From Gammaproteobacteria bacterium (GTDB lineage: Bacteria; Pseudomonadota; Gammaproteobacteria; JAADGQ01): a DNA stretch of 64,000 nt. Positions within the stretch are counted from its first letter, which is position 1, and each line of letters begins with the position of its first letter. The notes under the pieces were generated by a model, which did no database searches, was not told the DNA's origin, and saw nothing but the letters and a program-made list of their open reading frames with translations. This document shows positions 36,724 through 61,944 of the stretch, in pieces. Position numbers and translations under genes: made by a program. Location: contig JAKITI010000013.1 in the NCBI GenBank assembly GCA_021648145.1, positions 1 to 64,000 on the forward strand, read 5' to 3'.

Positions 36724-38682
36724 ATGTCAGAAAAAGAGAAGGTTAAAAATCATCACTGGCAGCGTATTGATGACGATTATGGCATCGTCTGGCTGAGTCT
36801 GGATAAAGCGGATGCGACGACCAATGTTTTGAGTTATGAAGTGTTAAACGAGTTTGAAGCGCTGCTCAAGCAGTTACAAACTGAGTCACCACAGGGTTTG
36901 GTTATTCAGTCAAAAAAAGAGAATGGCTTTATTGCGGGGGCTGATGTTAACGCGTTCAAAGAGCTTAAAACTTATGATGAAGCATTGGAGCTGATCCAGC
37001 ATGGGCAAGCAGTATTTAATCGTCTGGAACGGTTAAATATTCCAACTTTGGCATTGATTCATGGGTTTTGCCTGGGCGGCGGGCTGGAACTGGCATTAGC
37101 ATGTGACTATCGCATTGCCGATGAAAATCCTAAAACAAAACTGGGTTTACCTGAAGTTCTGTTGGGAATTCACCCAGGGTTTGGTGGTTCTGTGCGTTTG
37201 ACCCGCTTGGTGGGCGCACCTGCGGCGATGAGTATGATGCTGAGTGGCCGAGCAGTTCGTGCGCGTGCGGCCAAAAAAATGGGATTGCTTGATGCGGCGG
37301 TGCCACAGCGCCAGCTACAGAGAGCGGCTCATCAATTTATCATGAAATCGCCTAAAGTCAGCCATGCGAGTGGCTGGAAAATGTTGACAAACTACTCACC
37401 CGTAAGGCAGTTATTAGCGTCAGTATTACGTCGAAAAGTCGCAAAGCGTGCGCGTCCAGAGCATTATCCTGCACCTTATGCATTGATTGATTTATGGGAA
37501 CAGTATGGTTGCGATAAAAGGCTGATGATGCGTGAAGAGGCTGCTTCAGTGGCACGCTTGATTATTGGTAAGACCGCCCAAAATTTAGTGCGTGTTTTTT
37601 TTCTGCAAGAGCAACTTAAATCGCAAGGTAAAAAATCACTGTTTACCCCTAAATATATTCACATCATTGGCGGCGGTGTGATGGGGGGAGATATTGCTGC
37701 GTGGTGCGCACTCTGTGGTTTGCGTGTGACGATACAGGATCGGCAGCATGAATCACTGGCGCGTGTGATTCAGCGAGCACACCGGCTGTTTAGAAAGCGC
37801 TTGAAACAACCCCGTTTAATAACCGAAGCACTGGAACGATTGAGACCCGATAAAGAAGGGCTTGGACTGTCTCGTGCAGATGTTGTGATCGAAGCGATCT
37901 TTGAAGATGTTGAAGCCAAACAATTACTGTTTCGTGAAATAGAACCGCAACTGAAAGAGGGCGCACTGCTGGCGACGAACACTTCCAGTATTCCGCTCGA
38001 AGTGCTGGGTGAGGCATTGGCAAAGCCTGAGCGTTTGGTTGGTTTACACTTTTTTAATCCTGTGGCCAAAATGCAGCTGGTTGAAATTGTGAGTGGTGAG
38101 TTGACTGATCCCGAGGTGGCTGCGCAAGCGGCGGCATTAACCCGTCATATCAACCGTTTGCCCCTGCCTGTAAAAAGTTCTCCAGGATTTTTAGTGAATC
38201 GTGTATTGATGCCTTATCTGCTGGAGGCGGTTGTTTTGGAGTCAGAAGGAGTCGCTCCAGAAGTGATTGATGAAGCAGCACTTGATTTTGGAATGCCTAT
38301 GGGGCCTGTCGAACTGGCCGATACGGTGGGCTTGGACATCTGTTATAGCGTCGCTGGAATTCTGTCTAAACAACTGCAACTAGAAGTTCCAAACCGGCTT
38401 GCGGAATTGGTAAAAGCGGGTCATCTTGGTCGAAAAACAGGTCAAGGATTTTATCAATATAAAAAAGGAAAAGTTCAGAAAAAACACTTTAAAGCAAATG
38501 ACGTCACAATCAAAGAAGTACAAGACCGTTTGATAAAACGCTTGCTTGATGAAGCACACATCTGTTTACAAGAAGGTATTGTAAAAGACGCTGATCAGCT
38601 AGATGCGGGGATTATTTTTGGTACAGGGTTCGCTCCATTCCGTGGCGGGCCAATATTTTATACTCAACAACGTCATAACTGA
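36724..38682 (+). CDS. fadJ: Enoyl-CoA hydratase / 3-hydroxyacyl-CoA dehydrogenase
   Basis: A 652-residue bifunctional enzyme. The N-terminal crotonase domain has GFIAGADVNAF and GFCLGGGLELALACDYRIA for the oxyanion hole. The NAD-binding domain has IIGGGVMGGDIAAWCALCG, and the dehydrogenase His lies in HFFNPVAKMQLVEIV. The E. coli enzyme is about 714 residues, so this one is short. The C-terminus ends in IFGTGFAPFRGG then IFYTQQRHN. A second, synonymously diverged copy of a 40-base piece of this end lies at 44033-44072, on the far side of the restriction system. Confidence 0.92.
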   Translation: MSEKEKVKNHHWQRIDDDYGIVWLSLDKADATTNVLSYEVLNEFEALLKQLQTESPQGLVIQSKKENGFIAGADVNAFKELKTYDEALELIQHGQAVFNRLERLNIPTLALIHGFCLGGGLELALACDYRIADENPKTKLGLPEVLLGIHPGFGGSVRLTRLVGAPAAMSMMLSGRAVRARAAKKMGLLDAAVPQRQLQRAAHQFIMKSPKVSHASGWKMLTNYSPVRQLLASVLRRKVAKRARPEHYPAPYALIDLWEQYGCDKRLMMREEAASVARLIIGKTAQNLVRVFFLQEQLKSQGKKSLFTPKYIHIIGGGVMGGDIAAWCALCGLRVTIQDRQHESLARVIQRAHRLFRKRLKQPRLITEALERLRPDKEGLGLSRADVVIEAIFEDVEAKQLLFREIEPQLKEGALLATNTSSIPLEVLGEALAKPERLVGLHFFNPVAKMQLVEIVSGELTDPEVAAQAAALTRHINRLPLPVKSSPGFLVNRVLMPYLLEAVVLESEGVAPEVIDEAALDFGMPMGPVELADTVGLDICYSVAGILSKQLQLEVPNRLAELVKAGHLGRKTGQGFYQYKKGKVQKKHFKANDVTIKEVQDRLIKRLLDEAHICLQEGIVKDADQLDAGIIFGTGFAPFRGGPIFYTQQRHN

Positions 38683-38706
38683 GATAATTTGGGTAAGAAA
38701 AGGCGG

Positions 38707-38740
38707 TAAAATATATTGGTCAACACCGGAACTGCTCAAA
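38707..38740 (+). repeat. Post-fadJ direct repeat, left copy (partner 44592-44625)
   Basis: Starts TAAAATATATTGGTCAACAC and matches 44592-44625 at 31 of 34 bases in the same orientation. The right copy lies beyond the DUF433/DUF5615 pair. With the fadJ fragment it shows that the right flank of the insert carries a diverged version of the fadJ downstream region. Confidence 0.75.
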
Positions 38741-38770
38741 TATGCATAGATATAATGATTTTCTCTTCAA

Positions 38771-38792
38771 TTAGGGCTTGTCAATAAATAAC
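38771..38792 (+). mobile_element. Solo MITE end
   Basis: The 22 bases here are identical to 61784-61805, the left end of the complete MITE-like element 23 kb away. No matching opposite arm was found nearby, so this is a remnant of a decayed or partly deleted copy at the left edge of the accessory block. Confidence 0.6.
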
Positions 38793-39155
38793 CCATTAAT
38801 TGGAATTAAGCGAGATAACGTTAAAAAATCCTATCGCAGCTTTCCAGCAGGAATCCATATCATCTTTTACTGAGTTGCGACAAACCATATAGAAATTATC
38901 AGTGTCATCCATCAGAAAATGGATGTACAGCAACACTTACCATAGCTTACCTGTTTCGATAAGTTACAACGCAGTTTTCTGTTTTCCATAGGCTGTCTTC
39001 ACACAGGAGCCCACGCCATAATATTTACCACACGATCTAACTCTACAAATAATTGACACCACACTGTCAAAAACTCCTTTTTAGTCAATAAGATGACTCA
39101 AAAATATAGAGGCAATATATTCGTTACTCGTTATTTTATCTATATTGTTTTGAAT

Positions 39156-39171
39156 GGCACAGGTCTTGCTT
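39156..39171 (+). promoter_or_regulatory. Sigma-54 (-24/-12) promoter match upstream of the restriction system
   Basis: TGGCAC-A-GGTC-TTGC-T is a perfect match to the general sigma-54 consensus TGGCAC-R-N4-TTGC-W. It is on the coding strand, with predicted initiation about 27 bases before the first methyltransferase gene at 39210. No enhancer-binding site was identified. Confidence 0.5.
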
Positions 39172-39209
39172 TGAGTCTGATAGTTATCAATCAAAGTTAA
39201 GGAAAACTT

Positions 39210-40076
39210 ATGTCTGTTGTTGTAAAAAATTCCATTGATGCAAGCAACAACGCCATCGAAAGGCCGCAAGGGAGCGCGCATTTCGACTGCACATTATCTC
39301 ACCGCAGCAGAAAGCGTATAAAGGAACTGGGCGAGGTCTTTACCCCTGAAGCCAGCATCGTGGACATGCTGAAACTGCTTGACCGAAGCCGCAGAGGAAT
39401 ATGGGGGAACGAAAACATTACTTTTTTCGAACCTTGCTGTGGCCACGGCAATATGGTTGTCGTCATCTACAGAAAGCGTTTGCAGGGTTTGTATAAAAAA
39501 GCGCTGCAAAGAGGTGAGAAAAAACCGGCCTATTATGCGGTCGCCAACGCGATTAACAGTCTGTGGGCGATTGATATCGACCCACTTAACATTACTCATT
39601 GCAGAGCCAGGGTGCTTGCGACAACCATGGAGTTCATAAAAGAAAAAACTGGTACATCCAGCGCCAGGAAAATCATTGCAAAAGAGACCTCATTCTTCGG
39701 CCACCTCCTGTGCGCGATTAACTGGCACATTCATGAAAATGAAACCCTTTCAAGTCTGTCCGGGGCAAAAGATGCCGAGACCGCAGCCGGTAAAACACAG
39801 GCAGGTCATCGCTGGTTTAGAAAATATGGACATCGGCCACTGAATTTCCAGACCAGCTGGACAGACCATTTCAAATCGAACCCGGCAGACAAGATCATCC
39901 GTATTAGTCACAGGCAAGCAGATCGATGGGTTAAAAACCTGATTGCGGGAAAACAATGCAGTGATTCAATTTTTCAATTTGCAGACTTTTTGACTGGTCA
40001 GAAAAAAATCCGGTTAATAATTTTCCCCAAAATAACGTCATTTATGCGGGAGGAGCCGCATGAAGACTGCGGTTGA
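39210..40076 (+). CDS. Methyltransferase-like subunit with SAM motif but no NPPY
   Basis: A 288-residue protein resembling the N-terminal part of an adenine-N6 DNA methyltransferase. GEVFTP is at residues 41-46, motif I FEPCCGHGN at 73-81, and an AIDIDP strand end at 120-125. The catalytic motif IV (NPPY or DPPY) expected further on is absent; the corresponding region reads as Trp/His-rich text with KYGHRPLNFQTSWTDHF. The end is not obviously truncated by a frameshift, since the next gene begins in another frame with its own ribosome site and a 17-base overlap. It may supply SAM binding to the next subunit, or be a degenerate partner. Local GC is about 50-55%, above the flanks. Confidence 0.75.
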   Translation: MSVVVKNSIDASNNAIERPQGSAHFDCTLSHRSRKRIKELGEVFTPEASIVDMLKLLDRSRRGIWGNENITFFEPCCGHGNMVVVIYRKRLQGLYKKALQRGEKKPAYYAVANAINSLWAIDIDPLNITHCRARVLATTMEFIKEKTGTSSARKIIAKETSFFGHLLCAINWHIHENETLSSLSGAKDAETAAGKTQAGHRWFRKYGHRPLNFQTSWTDHFKSNPADKIIRISHRQADRWVKNLIAGKQCSDSIFQFADFLTGQKKIRLIIFPKITSFMREEPHEDCG

Positions 40077-41538
40077 TTTGGGCGTCAGGACACATGTGGT
40101 TGATATTCTGGGTAACGTGGTGGGCAGGGATCAGCCTATCATGCTGATGGCAAAAGCGATAGAGCTGGTCACTACGCTGGATGAAGATGTTTTCCATAGC
40201 CAGGATGTGGTGTTCTTCGATCCATTTTGTAAAGCTGGAGAGATTCTTCTGGCATGCGCCTATGCAAGCTGCTGTGCCAAGTTTAAAACAGATGTAATGG
40301 ACATAGGGTCAGAAAAAGTTGAAATAGCAGTCAAGAATGAATTATATCACTCCAACCGCTACTTTGCCCTGTCCCCGGATGAACGACACCACCGTCTCAG
40401 CCTGAGAACCTTTTTGGGCAACGAAAATTCACATAAGAAAGAGTTTAACCATATCATCCGCAATGGCAATTATGTTTCCGAGATTGATGGGCGGCTTGAT
40501 CGAGAAAAATTTGAACGGGAGTTTTTATCCATGCTGGAGTATATAAAAAACACGTCAGGGAAAAAGAAAATTATTGCGGTGGGGAATCCACCTTATCAGG
40601 AGTCGGATGGGGGCGGGACAGGGAAAAGCGCTATCCCGATTTATAATATTTTTGTTGAAAAATTAATTGGAACGGCAGACGTTAGAGAATTTGTTATTGT
40701 CATCCCATCAAGGTGGTTTGCTGGGGGAAAAGGTCTAAACTCTTTTAGAGAAAATCTTATTAAATCAAAGAAAATATCGACAATTGCAAATTACTCTAAT
40801 AGCAGCACGGTTTTTCCGACAGTTGATATTAATGGTGGTGTTTGTTTTCTGCATTATAATAAAGGCGAAAAATCGAAAAACATAAAGTTCCTTGATAACG
40901 AAACCAGTCATTCAATCAACTTGGATGGTCTGGACATTATTCCAGATGACCCTCGCGCAACGATTATATATAAACACATTAAGTCCTTATGGAAAGGAAA
41001 ATGGGTTAGTGATACTGCTATGGCAAGAAATGCTTTTGGGATACCATCTAATTTATTCAAAAACAATACAGAAAAAACCAGATCTTCTGGTGAGAAAATA
41101 CAATGTTTTTTCATGGGCAAGCGAGTTAGATTTTTAAACCCCAGCTTAATCACCAATAACGCTGACTTGATTAAAAAATACAAAGTAGTTGTATCTAAAG
41201 CAGCTGGTGGTTCAAAAGGAAAAAGAAGATCGACGATACCAGTAAGCGTGTTTTTTATTTTAAATCCTGGTGAGGTTTGTAGTGAGACGTACAGTATTGT
41301 TGATGTTTTTTCTACAGTCACAGATGCAGAACGATTTTGTGCATTTCTAAAAACTGATTTTGCTAGATATCTTGTTGGGATACGAAAAATTACTCAGAAT
41401 GTTTCCAGAGATTCGTGGAAGTGGGTTCCACACATTGGAGTTGAGAAGGAATGGATCGACTGTGATCTTTTCGAATATTTTAAAATCACACCAGAAGAAC
41501 AAAAACACATCAAAAACAAGGTCAAGGAGTGGTCTTGA
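40060..41538 (+). CDS. Eco57I/TaqI-class adenine-N6 DNA methyltransferase
   Basis: A 492-residue DNA methyltransferase. Motif I is a variant, DPFCKAGE at residues 54-61, with Lys where Gly is usual. Catalytic motif IV is a good NPPYQ at 176-180. The segment FVIVIPSRWFAGGKGLNSFR and TVFPTVDINGGVCFL are typical of the Eco57I-class methylase fold. The C-terminal half, from about residue 195, is expected to recognise the target DNA and is strikingly AT-rich compared with the first half. GGAGGAG precedes the ATG. The stop overlaps the start of the helicase gene by one base (TGATG). Confidence 0.88.
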   Translation: MKTAVDLGVRTHVVDILGNVVGRDQPIMLMAKAIELVTTLDEDVFHSQDVVFFDPFCKAGEILLACAYASCCAKFKTDVMDIGSEKVEIAVKNELYHSNRYFALSPDERHHRLSLRTFLGNENSHKKEFNHIIRNGNYVSEIDGRLDREKFEREFLSMLEYIKNTSGKKKIIAVGNPPYQESDGGGTGKSAIPIYNIFVEKLIGTADVREFVIVIPSRWFAGGKGLNSFRENLIKSKKISTIANYSNSSTVFPTVDINGGVCFLHYNKGEKSKNIKFLDNETSHSINLDGLDIIPDDPRATIIYKHIKSLWKGKWVSDTAMARNAFGIPSNLFKNNTEKTRSSGEKIQCFFMGKRVRFLNPSLITNNADLIKKYKVVVSKAAGGSKGKRRSTIPVSVFFILNPGEVCSETYSIVDVFSTVTDAERFCAFLKTDFARYLVGIRKITQNVSRDSWKWVPHIGVEKEWIDCDLFEYFKITPEEQKHIKNKVKEWS

Positions 41539-41850
41539 TGGAAGAGCGGGAACTTTACGTCTACTCAACTGAAACCTACTTAAAAGAGGGGTTGGTTAAA
41601 GTCGGTCATTGTCTGCAAGGACGTTATAAGCAAAGAATCAAAGAACAATTTGGCACCAGCAACCCTGAGCTTCCAATTATTCTGTGGAATCATTCACTGC
41701 CTCAAGAGATAACAGATAAACACATTCATGGAAGAATGGAAAAAAATGGCATCAAGAAAAAATCTGATAGTGCTGGGCAGGAGTGGTTTTATGCTTCTAC
41801 AGATCAGGTTAAACAAGCGTTTAATGAAGTGGTTTTCGGGGAATCAAGAG
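40640..41850. other. AT-rich cassette spanning methyltransferase 3' end and nuclease 5' end
   Basis: From just after the NPPYQ codons to the start of the helicase core, GC falls to about 30-35% (for example 27% in 41041-41100), while the DNA on both sides is about 50-55%. The segment covers the presumed target-recognition half of the methyltransferase and the GIY-YIG-like domain of the next protein. Confidence 0.7.
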
Positions 41851-43997
41851 TCGAGAACTATCAACTCAGAAAAGAACAGCAAGCCGCTGTTGACAAGGCA
41901 TGCAAGTGGTTTTCTGGCGATTATTCCTCGGGCACGGTCAGGTCGGCAACGCATAAGGATCGTTTTTTGCTAAATGCCAAGATGCGGTTTGGTAAATGCT
42001 TTACCGGTCTTCATGTCGCCAAGGAAATTGGGGCAAAAAACACCCTGATTATGACCTATAAACCCGAGGTGATTAGCGAATGGATGGAAGCTGCGAATGG
42101 GCATGTCGATTTTTCCGGTTGGCTGGGTATTCGAGCTAAAAAACGGAATGGTAATAGCATAGAAGCTTGCTTGTCTGATAATGGTGAATTTCCTCCTTTT
42201 GATGGCTCTAAAGTGCTGGGTATTTCTTTGCAGGATTTAGCTATTGATACCGATGGAAAAACTAAAATAAGACTGGAACAAGTGGTGGCAACGCATTGGG
42301 ATTTGGTGATATTTGACGAAGTGCATTTTGGTAGCCGAACAGAGCGAGCCAAACATATTATCGACAGTTTGGAGTCTGATTTCCGACTTGATCTTTCCGG
42401 TACGCCGTTTCGGCTGATTCAGGAAGATGATTTTTGCTCACAACAGGTCTTTACCTATAGCTATCTGGATGAGAAAAAAAACAAGCAACAGGAAATTGAT
42501 AATGATCCCGGTGGCGACAAGCCTTATGTGTATCGGGAAATGCCCGATCTGGACATTTCAACCATCGAAATCACTCAACAGGATATTGCCGAACAACGAG
42601 AGACGTTTTTAACTGACGATCTGGATTTTTCCTTGAATGAGCTGTTCAAGGCGACCAAAAGTGGCTTTGTTTATAATGATGCTGTCGATCATTTTTTGGA
42701 CGGTTTAACCAAAGCCGGACATGATGCCAGAGCCATCAGCGTTTTTGGCAAACTGGGTAGCCAGTTGGGCGCACCGCCTGTGCGTCACTCTGTCTGGTGG
42801 CTGAACCGAGTTGATTCGGTGGCGGCACTGGCAAAAAAGTTGAGAAAGCACCCCTGTTTTTCCAGATTCGAGATCATCAATGCTTCGGGTTGCGAAGCCA
42901 GCGATGGTGATGAAAACAGTGTGATCGCGCGCGACAAGACAGATATCGAGAAAAAAATTCAGGCGGTTCATGGCAATCCGAATAAACTGGGCACGATTAC
43001 GTTGACATGTCGCCGCTTTCTAACCGGCGTGACCATCAAGGAGTGGGACAGCATTCTGGTGCTGAATGATGTCAAGTCGGCAGAATCATATTATCAAGCT
43101 ATCTTCAGGGTACAATCGGCGTGGGTGGATAAAAAGAGCCGAAAAGTCCTCAAACCCCGCGCCTGGGTGTTTGATTTTGCTATTTCCCGCTGCTTGCGCA
43201 TTACCTATGAATACGCCAGCGCACTGGCTGACCAACTGGATCAGCAAGACAGTTATGAGCAAAATGTTCGGCTGGATCGTGATAACCTGACGGATACGGT
43301 AACAGGTCTGTGTGACACGCTGGACATCAAACGATTTTATGAAGGCAGTCTGAACAGCGATGCGACAACTGCAAAAGATATTTTCGAGGCGCTGAATCTG
43401 GAAGGCTCCCGAATTTCTCTGGCGAAACGTATTACCAGTGATGTGCTGGTGAATTTTGGTGCATTGAAGTTGCTGGAAGATAATCCCTATCTGTATGAAG
43501 TATTGAAAAAGGTCAAAGGTTACCGTACTCAGGAAGTCGGCACGATTGAGGATTTTGTGCATATCGGGATTGAGGCAGAGGAACTGAAGAACAAGAAAAA
43601 ACGGGAAAACACGACACTGGACGATACTGAGGAAGAAAACAAGGATTTTGTCGAGAAAGAGAAAGACAAGGAACGCAAATCAAGAAAGAAATGGTATGCC
43701 ACGCAAATCAAGCGCTTGGCTATTTGCATGGCCGATTTTATCTACATGACCTACGAACGGGAATATAATATTGATGATGTCATAAAAACCAAAAATCCGC
43801 ATTTTTTTTGGGTGATGACTGGTATTTCTCAAGATGATTTTGCAAAACTTTGTGATAAAGGGTTTGTTAATCGTCTTGCCTTGAATCGGATCGTGCGTGA
43901 ATTTCGGGATCAGGAAGAAACTTCGTTATTGCCTGAAGAATATATCTTTGAGAACCTGAAAATGTTAAATGAGCAGCGCGCTCAACTTATAGTGTAA
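41538..43997 (+). CDS. GIY-YIG/T5orf172 nuclease fused to SF2 helicase (restriction subunit)
   Basis: An 819-residue protein. Residues 1-100 look like a T5orf172 (GIY-YIG superfamily) domain: LYVYSTE, VKVGHC, an Arg near residue 29, and EWFYAS. A superfamily-2 helicase core follows, with motif I NAKMRFGKC at 146-154 in place of the usual GxGKT, DEVH at 260-263, SGTP at 287-290, and YYQAIFRVQS as motif VI. The C-terminal third has a Lys/Glu-rich coiled coil. The ATG at 41538 has AAGGAG eight bases upstream and overlaps the methyltransferase stop by one base. Together with the two methyltransferase genes it looks like an ATP-dependent restriction enzyme. Confidence 0.82.
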   Translation: MEERELYVYSTETYLKEGLVKVGHCLQGRYKQRIKEQFGTSNPELPIILWNHSLPQEITDKHIHGRMEKNGIKKKSDSAGQEWFYASTDQVKQAFNEVVFGESRVENYQLRKEQQAAVDKACKWFSGDYSSGTVRSATHKDRFLLNAKMRFGKCFTGLHVAKEIGAKNTLIMTYKPEVISEWMEAANGHVDFSGWLGIRAKKRNGNSIEACLSDNGEFPPFDGSKVLGISLQDLAIDTDGKTKIRLEQVVATHWDLVIFDEVHFGSRTERAKHIIDSLESDFRLDLSGTPFRLIQEDDFCSQQVFTYSYLDEKKNKQQEIDNDPGGDKPYVYREMPDLDISTIEITQQDIAEQRETFLTDDLDFSLNELFKATKSGFVYNDAVDHFLDGLTKAGHDARAISVFGKLGSQLGAPPVRHSVWWLNRVDSVAALAKKLRKHPCFSRFEIINASGCEASDGDENSVIARDKTDIEKKIQAVHGNPNKLGTITLTCRRFLTGVTIKEWDSILVLNDVKSAESYYQAIFRVQSAWVDKKSRKVLKPRAWVFDFAISRCLRITYEYASALADQLDQQDSYEQNVRLDRDNLTDTVTGLCDTLDIKRFYEGSLNSDATTAKDIFEALNLEGSRISLAKRITSDVLVNFGALKLLEDNPYLYEVLKKVKGYRTQEVGTIEDFVHIGIEAEELKNKKKRENTTLDDTEEENKDFVEKEKDKERKSRKKWYATQIKRLAICMADFIYMTYEREYNIDDVIKTKNPHFFWVMTGISQDDFAKLCDKGFVNRLALNRIVREFRDQEETSLLPEEYIFENLKMLNEQRAQLIV

Positions 43998-44301
43998 ATA
44001 TTAATTTCTTGGGCAGAGAAGTTGTGTTGATTGATGCCGGGATTATTTTTGGTACAGGCTTTGCCCCATTCCCAACAGCAAGCCAAATTACTTTTGGTGG
44101 TGAACCGAATAAAAATGATCTTTGCCGAAAATCGTTATCTTTAGAAACGATGATATAATTTTCATCCTGAGCATACTCCCAAATGCAGGTATCTGTAGTC
44201 CCTTGCATCTGTAAAAAATCAATATGGCTACTTTCTGGAAAATCTTTCGTGAGAAATTTAACCAGCTTTGAGCTAATGTTTTCATCCAAGAGTAGTTTCA
44301 T
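43987..44301 (-). CDS. DUF5615 PIN-like toxin with altered C-terminus
   Basis: A 104-residue protein starting MKLLLDENISSKLVKFLTKD. The PIN-like acidic residues are visible in LLLDEN and IIVSKDNDFRQR, then PPKVIWLAVGN. DUF5615 proteins usually continue with a helical segment here. Instead the frame runs antisense through the fadJ fragment (GAKPVPKIIPAS) and ends shortly after, so its natural end seems to have been replaced. It overlaps its DUF433 partner by four bases and converges on the helicase gene with an 11-base overlap. Activity may be lost. Confidence 0.8.
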   Translation of the reverse strand: MKLLLDENISSKLVKFLTKDFPESSHIDFLQMQGTTDTCIWEYAQDENYIIVSKDNDFRQRSFLFGSPPKVIWLAVGNGAKPVPKIIPASINTTSLPKKLIFTL

Positions 44302-44525
44302 GCAGCCAATGAAGTTGCAAGCCTTCGCTCTCTAGCAGCAGCAAAAGCAAAGACCATTTGTATATCTTTCTGACTAAGGCTTGGAAAGTCCTCTAAAATT
44401 TCGGATTCTGACATTCCTCCAGCAAAATATTCGAGAATGTCATATACCGTTATACGTGTACCTTTAATGCAAGGATTTCCACTACGAACATCAGGGTTAA
44501 TTATAATATACTCTTCAAAATTCAT
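44298..44525 (-). CDS. DUF433 antitoxin
   Basis: A 75-residue DUF433 protein: IIINPDVRSGNPCIKGTRITVYDILEYF then GMSESEILEDFPSLSQKDIQ. DUF433 proteins are winged-helix-like and are paired with DUF5615 PIN-type toxins. The stop overlaps the toxin start by four bases (ATGA type). The cassette lies between the fadJ fragment and the right copy of the post-fadJ repeat. Confidence 0.9.
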   Translation of the reverse strand: MNFEEYIIINPDVRSGNPCIKGTRITVYDILEYFAGGMSESEILEDFPSLSQKDIQMVFAFAAARERRLATSLAA

Positions 44526-44591: not shown

Positions 44592-44625
44592 TAAAATATA
44601 TCGGTCAACACTGGAATTGCTCAAA
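44592..44625 (+). repeat. Post-fadJ direct repeat, right copy
   Basis: Matches 38707-38740 at 31 of 34 bases, differing by C/T transitions. It marks the right boundary of the accessory block, beyond the DUF433/DUF5615 pair. Confidence 0.75.
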
Positions 44626-44780: not shown

Positions 44781-44796
44781 TGGCATATTTTTTGCC
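44781..44796 (+). promoter_or_regulatory. Sigma-54-like promoter of the porin gene
   Basis: TGGCAT-A-TTTT-TTGC-C follows the -24/-12 pattern with correct GG-GC spacing, deviating only at the last base. Predicted initiation is about 28 bases before the porin start. Confidence 0.5.
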
Positions 44797-44834: not shown

Positions 44835-46052
44835 ATGAAAAAATCACTAAACATGGCTCTGGTTAGCAGTGCAATAATGGGTTTGACAGCAGTGGGTTAT
44901 ATGCAATCGGTACAAGCTGATTCTATTGCTGATGCGATGAGTTCTGGTAAAGCGACTGTTGATTTTCGTTTGCGCTACGAGGGTGTTGATCAAACGGGAA
45001 AAAGTAAGAAAGCGAATGCGGCAACTTTACGTTCACGCTTATCTTATAAAACAAGTGATTTCCAGGGTTTTAGCCTTTTTATGCAAGGAGAGCATGTAAA
45101 AGCTCTGGTAGAGGATTACAACAGTAAAACGAATGGAAAAAATGATTATCCTGTTATAGATGACCCAGCAACGACAGACCTTAATCAGGCATATATCGCT
45201 TACAATATGGCTGACACCACAGTTAAATTAGGTCGGCAAGAAGTGGTTCTGGATAATGCCCGTTTTGTGGGTAATGTAGGCTGGCGTCAGAATGCACAAT
45301 CTTTTGATGCATTGACGGTCGTGAATACTGCACTGGCAGATACAACGATCATTTATGGTTATGTTAATAATATAAATACAATTACGGGTGGTGATACTGA
45401 TACAAAAACCCACTTAGTCAATGCATCATATTCTGGTTTGCCGATCGGTAAAGTCACAGGTTATGGTTACTTTCTTGAGCTCACTGATGCACCTGCGACC
45501 TCTAATTCAACTTTAGGTCTGCGCTTTACCGGTGATACTGAGGTTGCAGAAGGAACCAAACTTCTTTATACCGCTGAGTTTGCATCTCAAAGCTCTTACA
45601 AAGGGGGTGCGAATACTATTGAGGCAGATTATTTTTTTGGTGAATTTGGTGTTAATACATCAGGTATTACTGCAAAACTGGGTTATGAGGTGCTGGGTGG
45701 TAATGGAACCTATGCCTTTGGTACACCATTGGCAACAAAGCATGGCAAGAATGGTTGGGCCGATATGTTTTTAGTGACTCCTAAAGATGGCCTGGTTGAT
45801 CTCTCTTTTTCAATCAGTGGTAAGGTTAATGGCGTGAAGTTGATGGCGGTTTATCGTAATTTCAGCGCAGATAATGGTAGTGATAAATATGGCTCTGAAA
45901 TTGATCTGATCGCGGTTAAAAAATTCAGTAAAAACTATAAACTTATGGCTAAATACGCAAGCTATAGTGCAGATACTCCTGATACGAATAGTACTCTTTC
46001 TTATAAAAAGGATACTGATAAATTATGGTTGATGGGGCAAGCCACGTTCTAG
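44835..46052 (+). CDS. Outer-membrane porin (alginate-export-like beta barrel)
   Basis: A 405-residue protein with a signal peptide cut near VQADS, then alternating amphipathic strands ending in an aromatic residue (LMGQATF), as in outer-membrane barrels. The early VDFRLRYEGVDQTG, LRSRLSYKT and VKLGRQEVVLDNARFVGNVGWRQN are reminiscent of alginate-export/Opr-type porins. The substrate is unknown. It has its own promoter and terminator and is not obviously part of the nor cluster next to it. Confidence 0.75.
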   Translation: MKKSLNMALVSSAIMGLTAVGYMQSVQADSIADAMSSGKATVDFRLRYEGVDQTGKSKKANAATLRSRLSYKTSDFQGFSLFMQGEHVKALVEDYNSKTNGKNDYPVIDDPATTDLNQAYIAYNMADTTVKLGRQEVVLDNARFVGNVGWRQNAQSFDALTVVNTALADTTIIYGYVNNINTITGGDTDTKTHLVNASYSGLPIGKVTGYGYFLELTDAPATSNSTLGLRFTGDTEVAEGTKLLYTAEFASQSSYKGGANTIEADYFFGEFGVNTSGITAKLGYEVLGGNGTYAFGTPLATKHGKNGWADMFLVTPKDGLVDLSFSISGKVNGVKLMAVYRNFSADNGSDKYGSEIDLIAVKKFSKNYKLMAKYASYSADTPDTNSTLSYKKDTDKLWLMGQATF

Positions 46053-46838: not shown

Positions 46839-46852
46839 TTGATCTAGGTCAA
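46839..46852. promoter_or_regulatory. Fnr/Dnr box of the nor operon
   Basis: TTGAT-CTAG-GTCAA differs from the TTGAT-N4-ATCAA consensus at one position. A -10-like TTAAAT at 46875-46880 puts the box centre near -41.5, as in class II activation of norC. The box lies in the divergent region, so it might also act on the regulator gene. Confidence 0.7.
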
Positions 46853-61785: not shown

Positions 61786-61944
61786 AGGGCTTGTCAATAA
61801 ATAACTTGATCGTATTGCGCCGGATATCGTTTTGTATTCAAGGCGCTGAAAGGGGCGCATACTCATTGTATGTAACCCTTTCAGCAACGCCGAAGACAAA
61901 AGGATAGACAAGCAAGATGATCAAGTTATTTATTGACAAGCCCT
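61786..61944. mobile_element. MITE-like palindromic element
   Basis: 26-bp perfect terminal inverted repeats lie at 61786-61811 (starting AGGGCTTGTCAATAAATAAC) and 61919-61944. The interior is also imperfectly self-complementary, with GCTGAAAGGG on one side and CCCTTTCAGC on the other around a short centre, so the whole 159 bp can fold into a hairpin. There is no coding capacity. The same end sequence is present alone at 38771-38792. The parent transposon family was not identified, and a clear target-site duplication was not found. Confidence 0.8.

Follow-up and report, generated by a model that had tools for sequence, protein, structure and literature searches.

The window, i.e. the whole 64 kb stretch of DNA that was analysed, contains a three-gene operon on the forward strand (39210-43997) in which M1 and M2 overlap by 17 bases and M2 and R by 10. 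The operon is preceded by a 527-nt AT-rich gap, upstream of which the fadAB genes are located on the same strand. The features discussed in the following are compiled in Table 1.

Table 1. Features of the M1-M2-R locus, with positions in the window and the grounds for each assignment
Feature	Position	Strand	Basis
Inserted segment with operon	38642-44032		between two fadB 3'-end copies; limits approximate
Weak candidate enhancer region TCTACAAATAATTGACA	39042-39070	+	8/10 fixed positions of TGTNAA-N5-TTNACA
Sigma-54-type -24/-12 promoter TGGCACAGGTCTTGCT	39155-39170	+	motif match and placement; promoter function predicted
Probable ribosome-binding site AAGGA	39199-39203	+	read from the sequence, function presumed; 6 nt before ATG
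M1, methyltransferase-like subunit, 288 aa	39210-40076	+	motif I FEPCCGHGN, then AIDID
M2, Eco57I-type adenine methyltransferase, 492 aa	40060-41538	+	Eco57I Pfam match, E 5e-17
R, T5orf172 (GIY-YIG-type) nuclease and SF2 (ResIII) helicase, 822 aa	41529-43997	+	domain matches

In M1, residues E74, G78, G80, N81 and the IDID of 121-124 are invariant in the alignment, and no NPPY motif IV was found. The protein carries an N-terminal extension of about 20 residues that is absent from 11 of 12 relatives, whose start codons were chosen manually; in the twelfth (L031), an in-frame ATG lies further upstream, and this protein may be extended as well. The structure model of M1 is modest (pLDDT 63.5) and suggests a partial methyltransferase-like core. 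A fold-based family assignment was not adopted, as the best Foldseek matches, the adenine methyltransferases CamA and MmeI, reach E values of 0.15 or worse; the weak matches to this model also include LlaBIII and LlaGI, at a non-significant E of 0.9-1.1, and no sequence relatives of M1 were found in the PDB at E 0.01. In M2, the sequences DPFCKAGE and GNPPY are invariant in all 11 aligned proteins, and R shares R36, K156, D263-E264 and H266 with every one of the 14 sequences in its alignment. None of the NCBIfam models matched M1, M2 or R above its cut-off. With PADLOC, the best match of M2 is to a type II methyltransferase model and that of R to a fused type IIG model, both matches being partial. 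Thus, M2 provides a methyltransferase with its catalytic motif and R combines nuclease and ATP-dependent translocase domains; M1-M2-R is a restriction-modification-type operon, for which protection and cutting are predicted. The type ISP enzymes LlaGI and LlaBIII unite nuclease, helicase and adenine methyltransferase parts in a single polypeptide. The same parts are present in M1-M2-R, but here they are distributed over three genes, the nuclease is of the T5orf172 type and a methyltransferase-like subunit is added.

Three-gene loci of this type (M1 without NPPY, Eco57I-type M2, GIY-YIG-type helicase R) form a widespread family. The same gene order is found in Methylomonas, Nitrosomonas, Legionella and several Bdellovibrionota loci, and the M1-M2-R order also occurs on a Legionella plasmid, with remoter versions on plasmids of Acuticoccus and Mycolicibacterium. 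Besides the operon in the window, the family loci listed are L029-L043, L124, L146 and L147. A pattern scan of viral contigs gave no M1 relatives, and two remote matches were found in phages. In the closest genome, a sister species of the same genus (G001), R is 80% identical and its matched frame contains two stop codons, M2 is truncated and diverged beside insertion-sequence-like DNA at the end of a contig (locus L030, contig C87), and M1 was not found.

Upstream of M1, TGGCACAGGTCTTGCT agrees with every fixed position of TGGCACRNNNNTTGCW. Its GG (39156-39157) and GC (39168-39169) take the positions -25/-24 and -13/-12, and the 10 nt between them conform to TGGCACR-N4-TTGCW, as expected for a -24/-12 promoter. 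Placed from the GC element, the predicted transcription start falls at about 39181, which would leave a leader of 29 nt. TGGCACAGGTCTTGCT is the sole sigma-54 match with zero mismatches in the window. A preliminary description of this DNA had reported a sigma-54 site in front of a restriction-type operon. Its motif, with all fixed positions fitting, is confirmed, as are the forward strand, the short distance (39 nt to the ATG of M1, the first gene) and the restriction-modification type of the genes downstream, whereas its interval, 39156-39171, was displaced by one base.

The host genome encodes RpoN (495 aa) and eight enhancer-binding proteins with a full sigma-54 activation domain. To judge the site against its genomic background, all 31 contigs (2.66 Mb, both strands) were searched for the motif. 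Five perfect matches were found as compared to 3.5 expected from a first-order (dinucleotide) composition model, so that the bare count is unremarkable; the emphasis previously given to a perfect match is correct as to the match itself but carries less weight than it appears to. The reversed pattern gave no matches, a control that makes the motif look better than it is, since chance alone would yield just 0.6 occurrences of that pattern. With up to two mismatches, 23 sites were counted in the window and 25 in shuffles. Placement is more discriminating. When upstream zones are defined as non-coding DNA 20-200 nt before a start on the same strand, three of the five perfect sites fall into such zones, against 0.09 expected genome-wide (window ORFs scaled up to the genome; Poisson P ~1e-4); for the window alone, the expectation is 0.002. 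The three sites precede flgB (29 nt), a PEP-CTERM gene (47 nt) and the M1-M2-R operon (39 nt), the former two being classic sigma-54 targets. The fourth lies within a coding sequence, presumably murC, and the fifth is intergenic with no nearby gene. All five have A at motif position seven. Downstream of the intergenic site (L012; G000:C8:116868-116883, minus strand), no gene was called on the same strand for 1 kb, and the site could serve a small RNA.

The sites with a single mismatch show a similar distribution. Among 68 such sites, 65 were classified (the other three lying in the window, 2, and on contig C21, 1) as 53 coding and 12 non-coding, and ten of these 12 are located 44-188 nt before a start, compared to about 1.5 expected. 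The genes behind the one-mismatch sites, identified by sequence, are taken to include glnK, nirB, a type IV pilin gene and a nitrate transporter gene. It should be noted that the site classes derive from a simple ORF picker and that some intergenic labels are doubtful (upstream of L104 the DNA looks coding, and L106 may start later). Judged by site placement, the genome uses the sigma-54 consensus, and a perfect, well-placed site is therefore more apt to be real than spurious. TGGCACAGGTCTTGCT is such a site, being non-coding, on the strand of the operon and at a short distance from it, beyond what chance predicts. The reading preferred here, and considered likely from sequence evidence, is that TGGCACAGGTCTTGCT serves the M1-M2-R operon as a functional sigma-54 promoter.

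The conservation of the site was addressed in the 300 nt upstream of M1 relatives at 19 loci, comprising 12 close ones (11 of a 16-locus set and one plasmid locus) and seven remote ones; the presence of rpoN in the host was not a criterion. No site comparable to TGGCACAGGTCTTGCT, which scores 18.9 bits, was found at any of the 19 related loci. The best one reached 13.3 bits (L033, at -119), in a matrix whose weights were set by the analyst. The expectation that the motif would be kept upstream of homologous loci is thus contradicted. The preliminary assignment of the operon to sigma-54 control agrees with the site, its strand and distance, rpoN, the eight activators and the flgB and PEP-CTERM sites, but not with this lack of conservation. 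As the restriction system is mobile, absence from all related loci still leaves a locally acquired promoter possible.

The surroundings of the operon bear on this point. The inserted segment is flanked by 40-bp copies of the fadB 3' end (38602-38641 and 44033-44072, 90% identical), the second of which resembles the tail of a different fadB, and this suggests that the island was integrated by recombination at fadB. In the sister genome, a porin gene follows about 150 bases after fadB, with the operon absent between the two. The gap before M1 contains the C-terminal remnant of a ParE toxin (38817-38942) with an in-frame stop, recognized by Pfam ParE_toxin at E 3.5e-4 and 21.5 bits against a cut-off of 23. 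It also contains, at 38769-38792, a copy of the 24-base end of a MITE-like element; the 157-base element itself is located at 61787-61943 and has 25-base perfect terminal inverted repeats (GGGCTTGTCAATAAATAACTTGATC). Because the operon was inserted behind fadB and is missing at this place in the sister species, the promoter looks locally acquired. We therefore attribute it, with probability rather than certainty, to the insertion of the mobile operon behind fadB and not to inheritance within the family. The remnants in the gap, together with the additional N-terminal residues of M1, make local assembly of the promoter the most likely course.

A more specific version of this origin would have a different sigma-54-controlled gene supply the promoter together with the beginning of the M1 coding sequence during assembly of the island, the promoter then being functional but its regulation a by-product with no selected benefit. 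This proposal is compatible with a working promoter and differs from the preferred reading in origin and benefit. It would account for the M1 extension missing in 11 of the 12 relatives, it agrees with the absence of the insertion at fadB in the sister genome, and the toxin remnant and transposable-element end in the gap are signs of the patchwork that it implies. Conversely, no donor gene for promoter and extension was detected among 143 genomes, the host's own included. Only six short foreign matches to the promoter DNA (E 0.001-0.01 per genome) were obtained, along with two to the N-terminal peptide of M1 (E 0.04 and 0.75), which is chance level for that number of genomes; a captured gene start was accordingly not assigned to any source. 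On balance, capture is a tentative possibility, somewhat short of an even chance.

A second alternative concerns the level of expression in the uninduced state. Under dual control, a sigma-70 promoter or read-through would supply a level of transcription that maintains methylation, and the sigma-54 promoter would add an inducible boost. Such an arrangement would keep the genome from being unmethylated while the activator is off. Read-through from fadB into the operon is possible, with fadAB upstream on the same strand and no terminator-like site found on the forward strand between 38683 and 39209. The sigma-70 component fares less well. In the 200 nt before M1, the best sigma-70-like site has a score reached by 21% of resampled sequences, and the best sites before M1 in 12 relatives are likewise at chance level; a sigma-70 promoter as an alternative to TGGCACAGGTCTTGCT was rejected on this basis. 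Dual control is thus regarded as doubtful. That TGGCACAGGTCTTGCT is a chance or relic motif, unused while a weak sigma-70 promoter in the gap, or read-through originating at fadAB, drives the operon, is unlikely: it accords with about 3.5 perfect matches expected in the genome, two of five perfect sites not lying before genes, the absence at 19 of 19 related loci, the missing terminator-like site and sigma-70-like hexamer pairs with 9/12 matches upstream of M1 (e.g. 39093-39121; nine pairs in 38400-40200 vs 3.9, sd 2.1, in shuffles), but not with upstream-zone expectations of 0.09 in the genome and 0.002 in the window, the exact spacing to ribosome-binding site and ATG, or a best sigma-70-like site no better than resampled sequence.

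If TGGCACAGGTCTTGCT is a working sigma-54 promoter, we infer that the operon depends on sigma-54, that transcription starts where predicted and that expression is either on or off. The sigma-54 holoenzyme would sit on TGGCACAGGTCTTGCT as a closed complex until an enhancer-binding protein of the host, bound upstream and acting in trans, remodels it, and only then would transcription start near 39181. M1, M2 and R would be translated in that order from one overlapping message, with the methyltransferase parts made first. A difficulty of this scheme is that the genome would be unmethylated at the moment of switch-on. It could be met if R required association with the M subunits for its activity, or if a second promoter or read-through gave a basal level of expression. 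Silent methyltransferase genes would be unusual for a restriction system, which counts against the preferred reading. It seems quite unlikely that methylation and restriction are both switched through sigma-54 by a host activator (e.g. PrsR or the flagellar or nitrogen activators), with the methylation state of the genome following physiology and restriction armed only in one lifestyle, e.g. surface growth.

The search for an activator was directed at the upstream region and at the candidates in the host. None of the eight enhancer-binding-protein genes is located on the contig of the window. In an NCBIfam scan of seven of them (L007 was left out), NtrC and PrsR pass the curated cut-offs, PrsR as TIGR02915 with 710 bits compared to a cut-off of 502.6; below the cut-offs remain two activators resembling GlrR and NtrX and three further ones. 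For NtrC, the box consensus TGCACC-N5-GGTGCA was scored over 12 positions. The restriction operon reached 7/12, glnK and nirB 8, and the nitrate-transporter-like gene 11. As a score of 8 was also obtained upstream of flgB and of the PEP-CTERM gene and at two other sites, equalling glnK and nirB, this scoring separates poorly. By eye, NtrC-like half-boxes can be recognized at glnK and nirB, and none at the restriction operon. Control by NtrC was set aside, as no box clearer than 7/12 emerged, but NtrC may still be the activator, since glnK and nirB themselves reach only 8 by this score.

PrsR is the regulator of PEP-CTERM and exopolysaccharide genes. For PEP-CTERM promoters, the excerpts of the published analysis give a mean distance of 62.8 nt between motif 1 and the sigma-54 motif 2, with a range of 32-92 nt (PMC1569441). 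The host PEP-CTERM gene with a perfect site matches this layout, with TGTCAATTTTTTTTACA located 62 nt before the promoter, and a PEP-CTERM gene in a related genome (G002) has a similar motif pair at 63 nt. Across the host (G000), G001 and G002, the pair precedes two of six PEP-CTERM genes over the Pfam cut-off. The arms TGTNAA-N5-TTNACA, derived from the host's own PEP-CTERM upstream site, were used to search the region before M1 and yielded TCTACAAATAATTGACA, which overlaps an inverted repeat, TTGACA-N6-TGTCAA, and ends 96 nt before the promoter, outside the range in the excerpts (PMC1569441). By criteria set after inspection, simulated regions reach a score of at least 8 in 17% of cases, two perfect half-sites in 5% and both in 1.6%; the score taken by itself is not significant. 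With an imperfect motif-1-like stretch (8/10), 96 nt away and matched in 17% of simulations, control by PrsR was rejected as an established fact, and PrsR as activator of the restriction operon is kept as a lead. The physiological signal to which the preliminary description had tied the operon is accordingly not borne out: there is no clear NtrC-type box, by a poorly discriminating score, and the PrsR-type box is marginal and at an unusual distance.

Other candidate sites were considered and set aside. Six-base arms such as those of the palindrome TTGACA-N6-TGTCAA are, by our own estimate, common by chance. A motif shared with 13 other upstream regions of the host and that of the porin gene did not emerge either, the best 18-mers scoring 12-15 as compared to 12-16 in eight resamplings per region; for L077 and L092, the match exceeded all eight resamplings by one, a margin too small to carry weight. 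A candidate FNR/DNR-type box, CTGATAGTTATCAA, overlaps the predicted start (39177-39190, 9/10), a score reached by chance in 5% of cases. A second box of this type, also 9/10, is found at 46839-46852 between a Crp-family gene and what is presumably norC.

Several known systems are comparable in part. The PEP-CTERM/PrsR promoters, as excerpted, have a -24/-12 site shortly before the gene, and the host contains both PrsR and a PEP-CTERM gene of this kind; here, by contrast, a restriction operon follows, and the motif-1-like site is imperfect (8/10) and its distance of 96 nt lies outside the published spacing (PMC1569441). The closest parallel comes from Xylella fastidiosa, where the excerpted data include a predicted sigma-54 site, TGGCACAGTGCCAGCA (-28), before the type I restriction-modification operon XF2724-21, scoring 8.69 in the matrix of that study (PMC3224663). 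Both loci have a -24/-12 sequence just upstream of restriction-modification genes, but the Xylella site is weaker, a prediction only, and belongs to a different restriction class (PMC3224663). According to the excerpts of PMC9879122, the Salmonella RNA-repair operon rsr-yrlBA-rtcBA is controlled by RtcR and sigma-54 and linked to prophage induction. It resembles the proposed arrangement in being a stress-response operon switched via sigma-54 by an enhancer-binding protein, but it serves RNA repair and has its activator gene adjacent, whereas the genes here are of restriction-modification type with no activator gene on the contig (PMC9879122). C-protein-controlled systems, in the excerpts on Kpn2I, are regulated restriction-modification operons as well; unlike these, M1-M2-R has no controller-protein gene within the operon. 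In a Burkholderia ntrC mutant, the excerpts list a type I R subunit among the genes with increased transcription (value 2.9), be it a direct or an indirect effect (PMC5491218). A C. difficile rpoN paper was discarded as a precedent, since "restriction" in its excerpts refers to cloning and one reference only.

Among the open-licence literature matches listed, no tested sigma-54-controlled restriction operon was found and one was predicted (Xylella). The site described here is hence not the first prediction of its kind, a sigma-54 site before restriction genes having been predicted earlier in the excerpted Xylella study (PMC3224663). If the promoter works as proposed, a restriction system would stand behind a class of promoter that does not fire unless its activator is present, and methylation and restriction would both be conditional. 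This would raise the question of how the unmethylated genome of the cell is spared from cleavage upon switch-on, and the locus would be a tangible example in which to study what physiological cue activates a defence. The operon may represent such a conditional defence, but no promoter of this type was found before related operons (0/19).

Further observations were made in the vicinity of the island. A sigma-54-like site, TGGCATATTTTTTGCC (44781-44796, forward strand), precedes the porin gene (at 44835) by 38 nt; its counterpart in the sister genome reads TGGTATATTTTTTGCT, with GG and GC kept in both; this conservation is weak evidence, as the region is alignable overall between the two genomes. 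Further diverged direct repeats are found at 38707-38740 and 44592-44625, and the repeats around the island are 90-91% identical. A DUF433/DUF5615 gene pair, probably of toxin-antitoxin type, is located at 43987-44525 on the minus strand, inside the repeated fadB-tail region, and the reading frame of its DUF5615 member extends into antisense fadB sequence.
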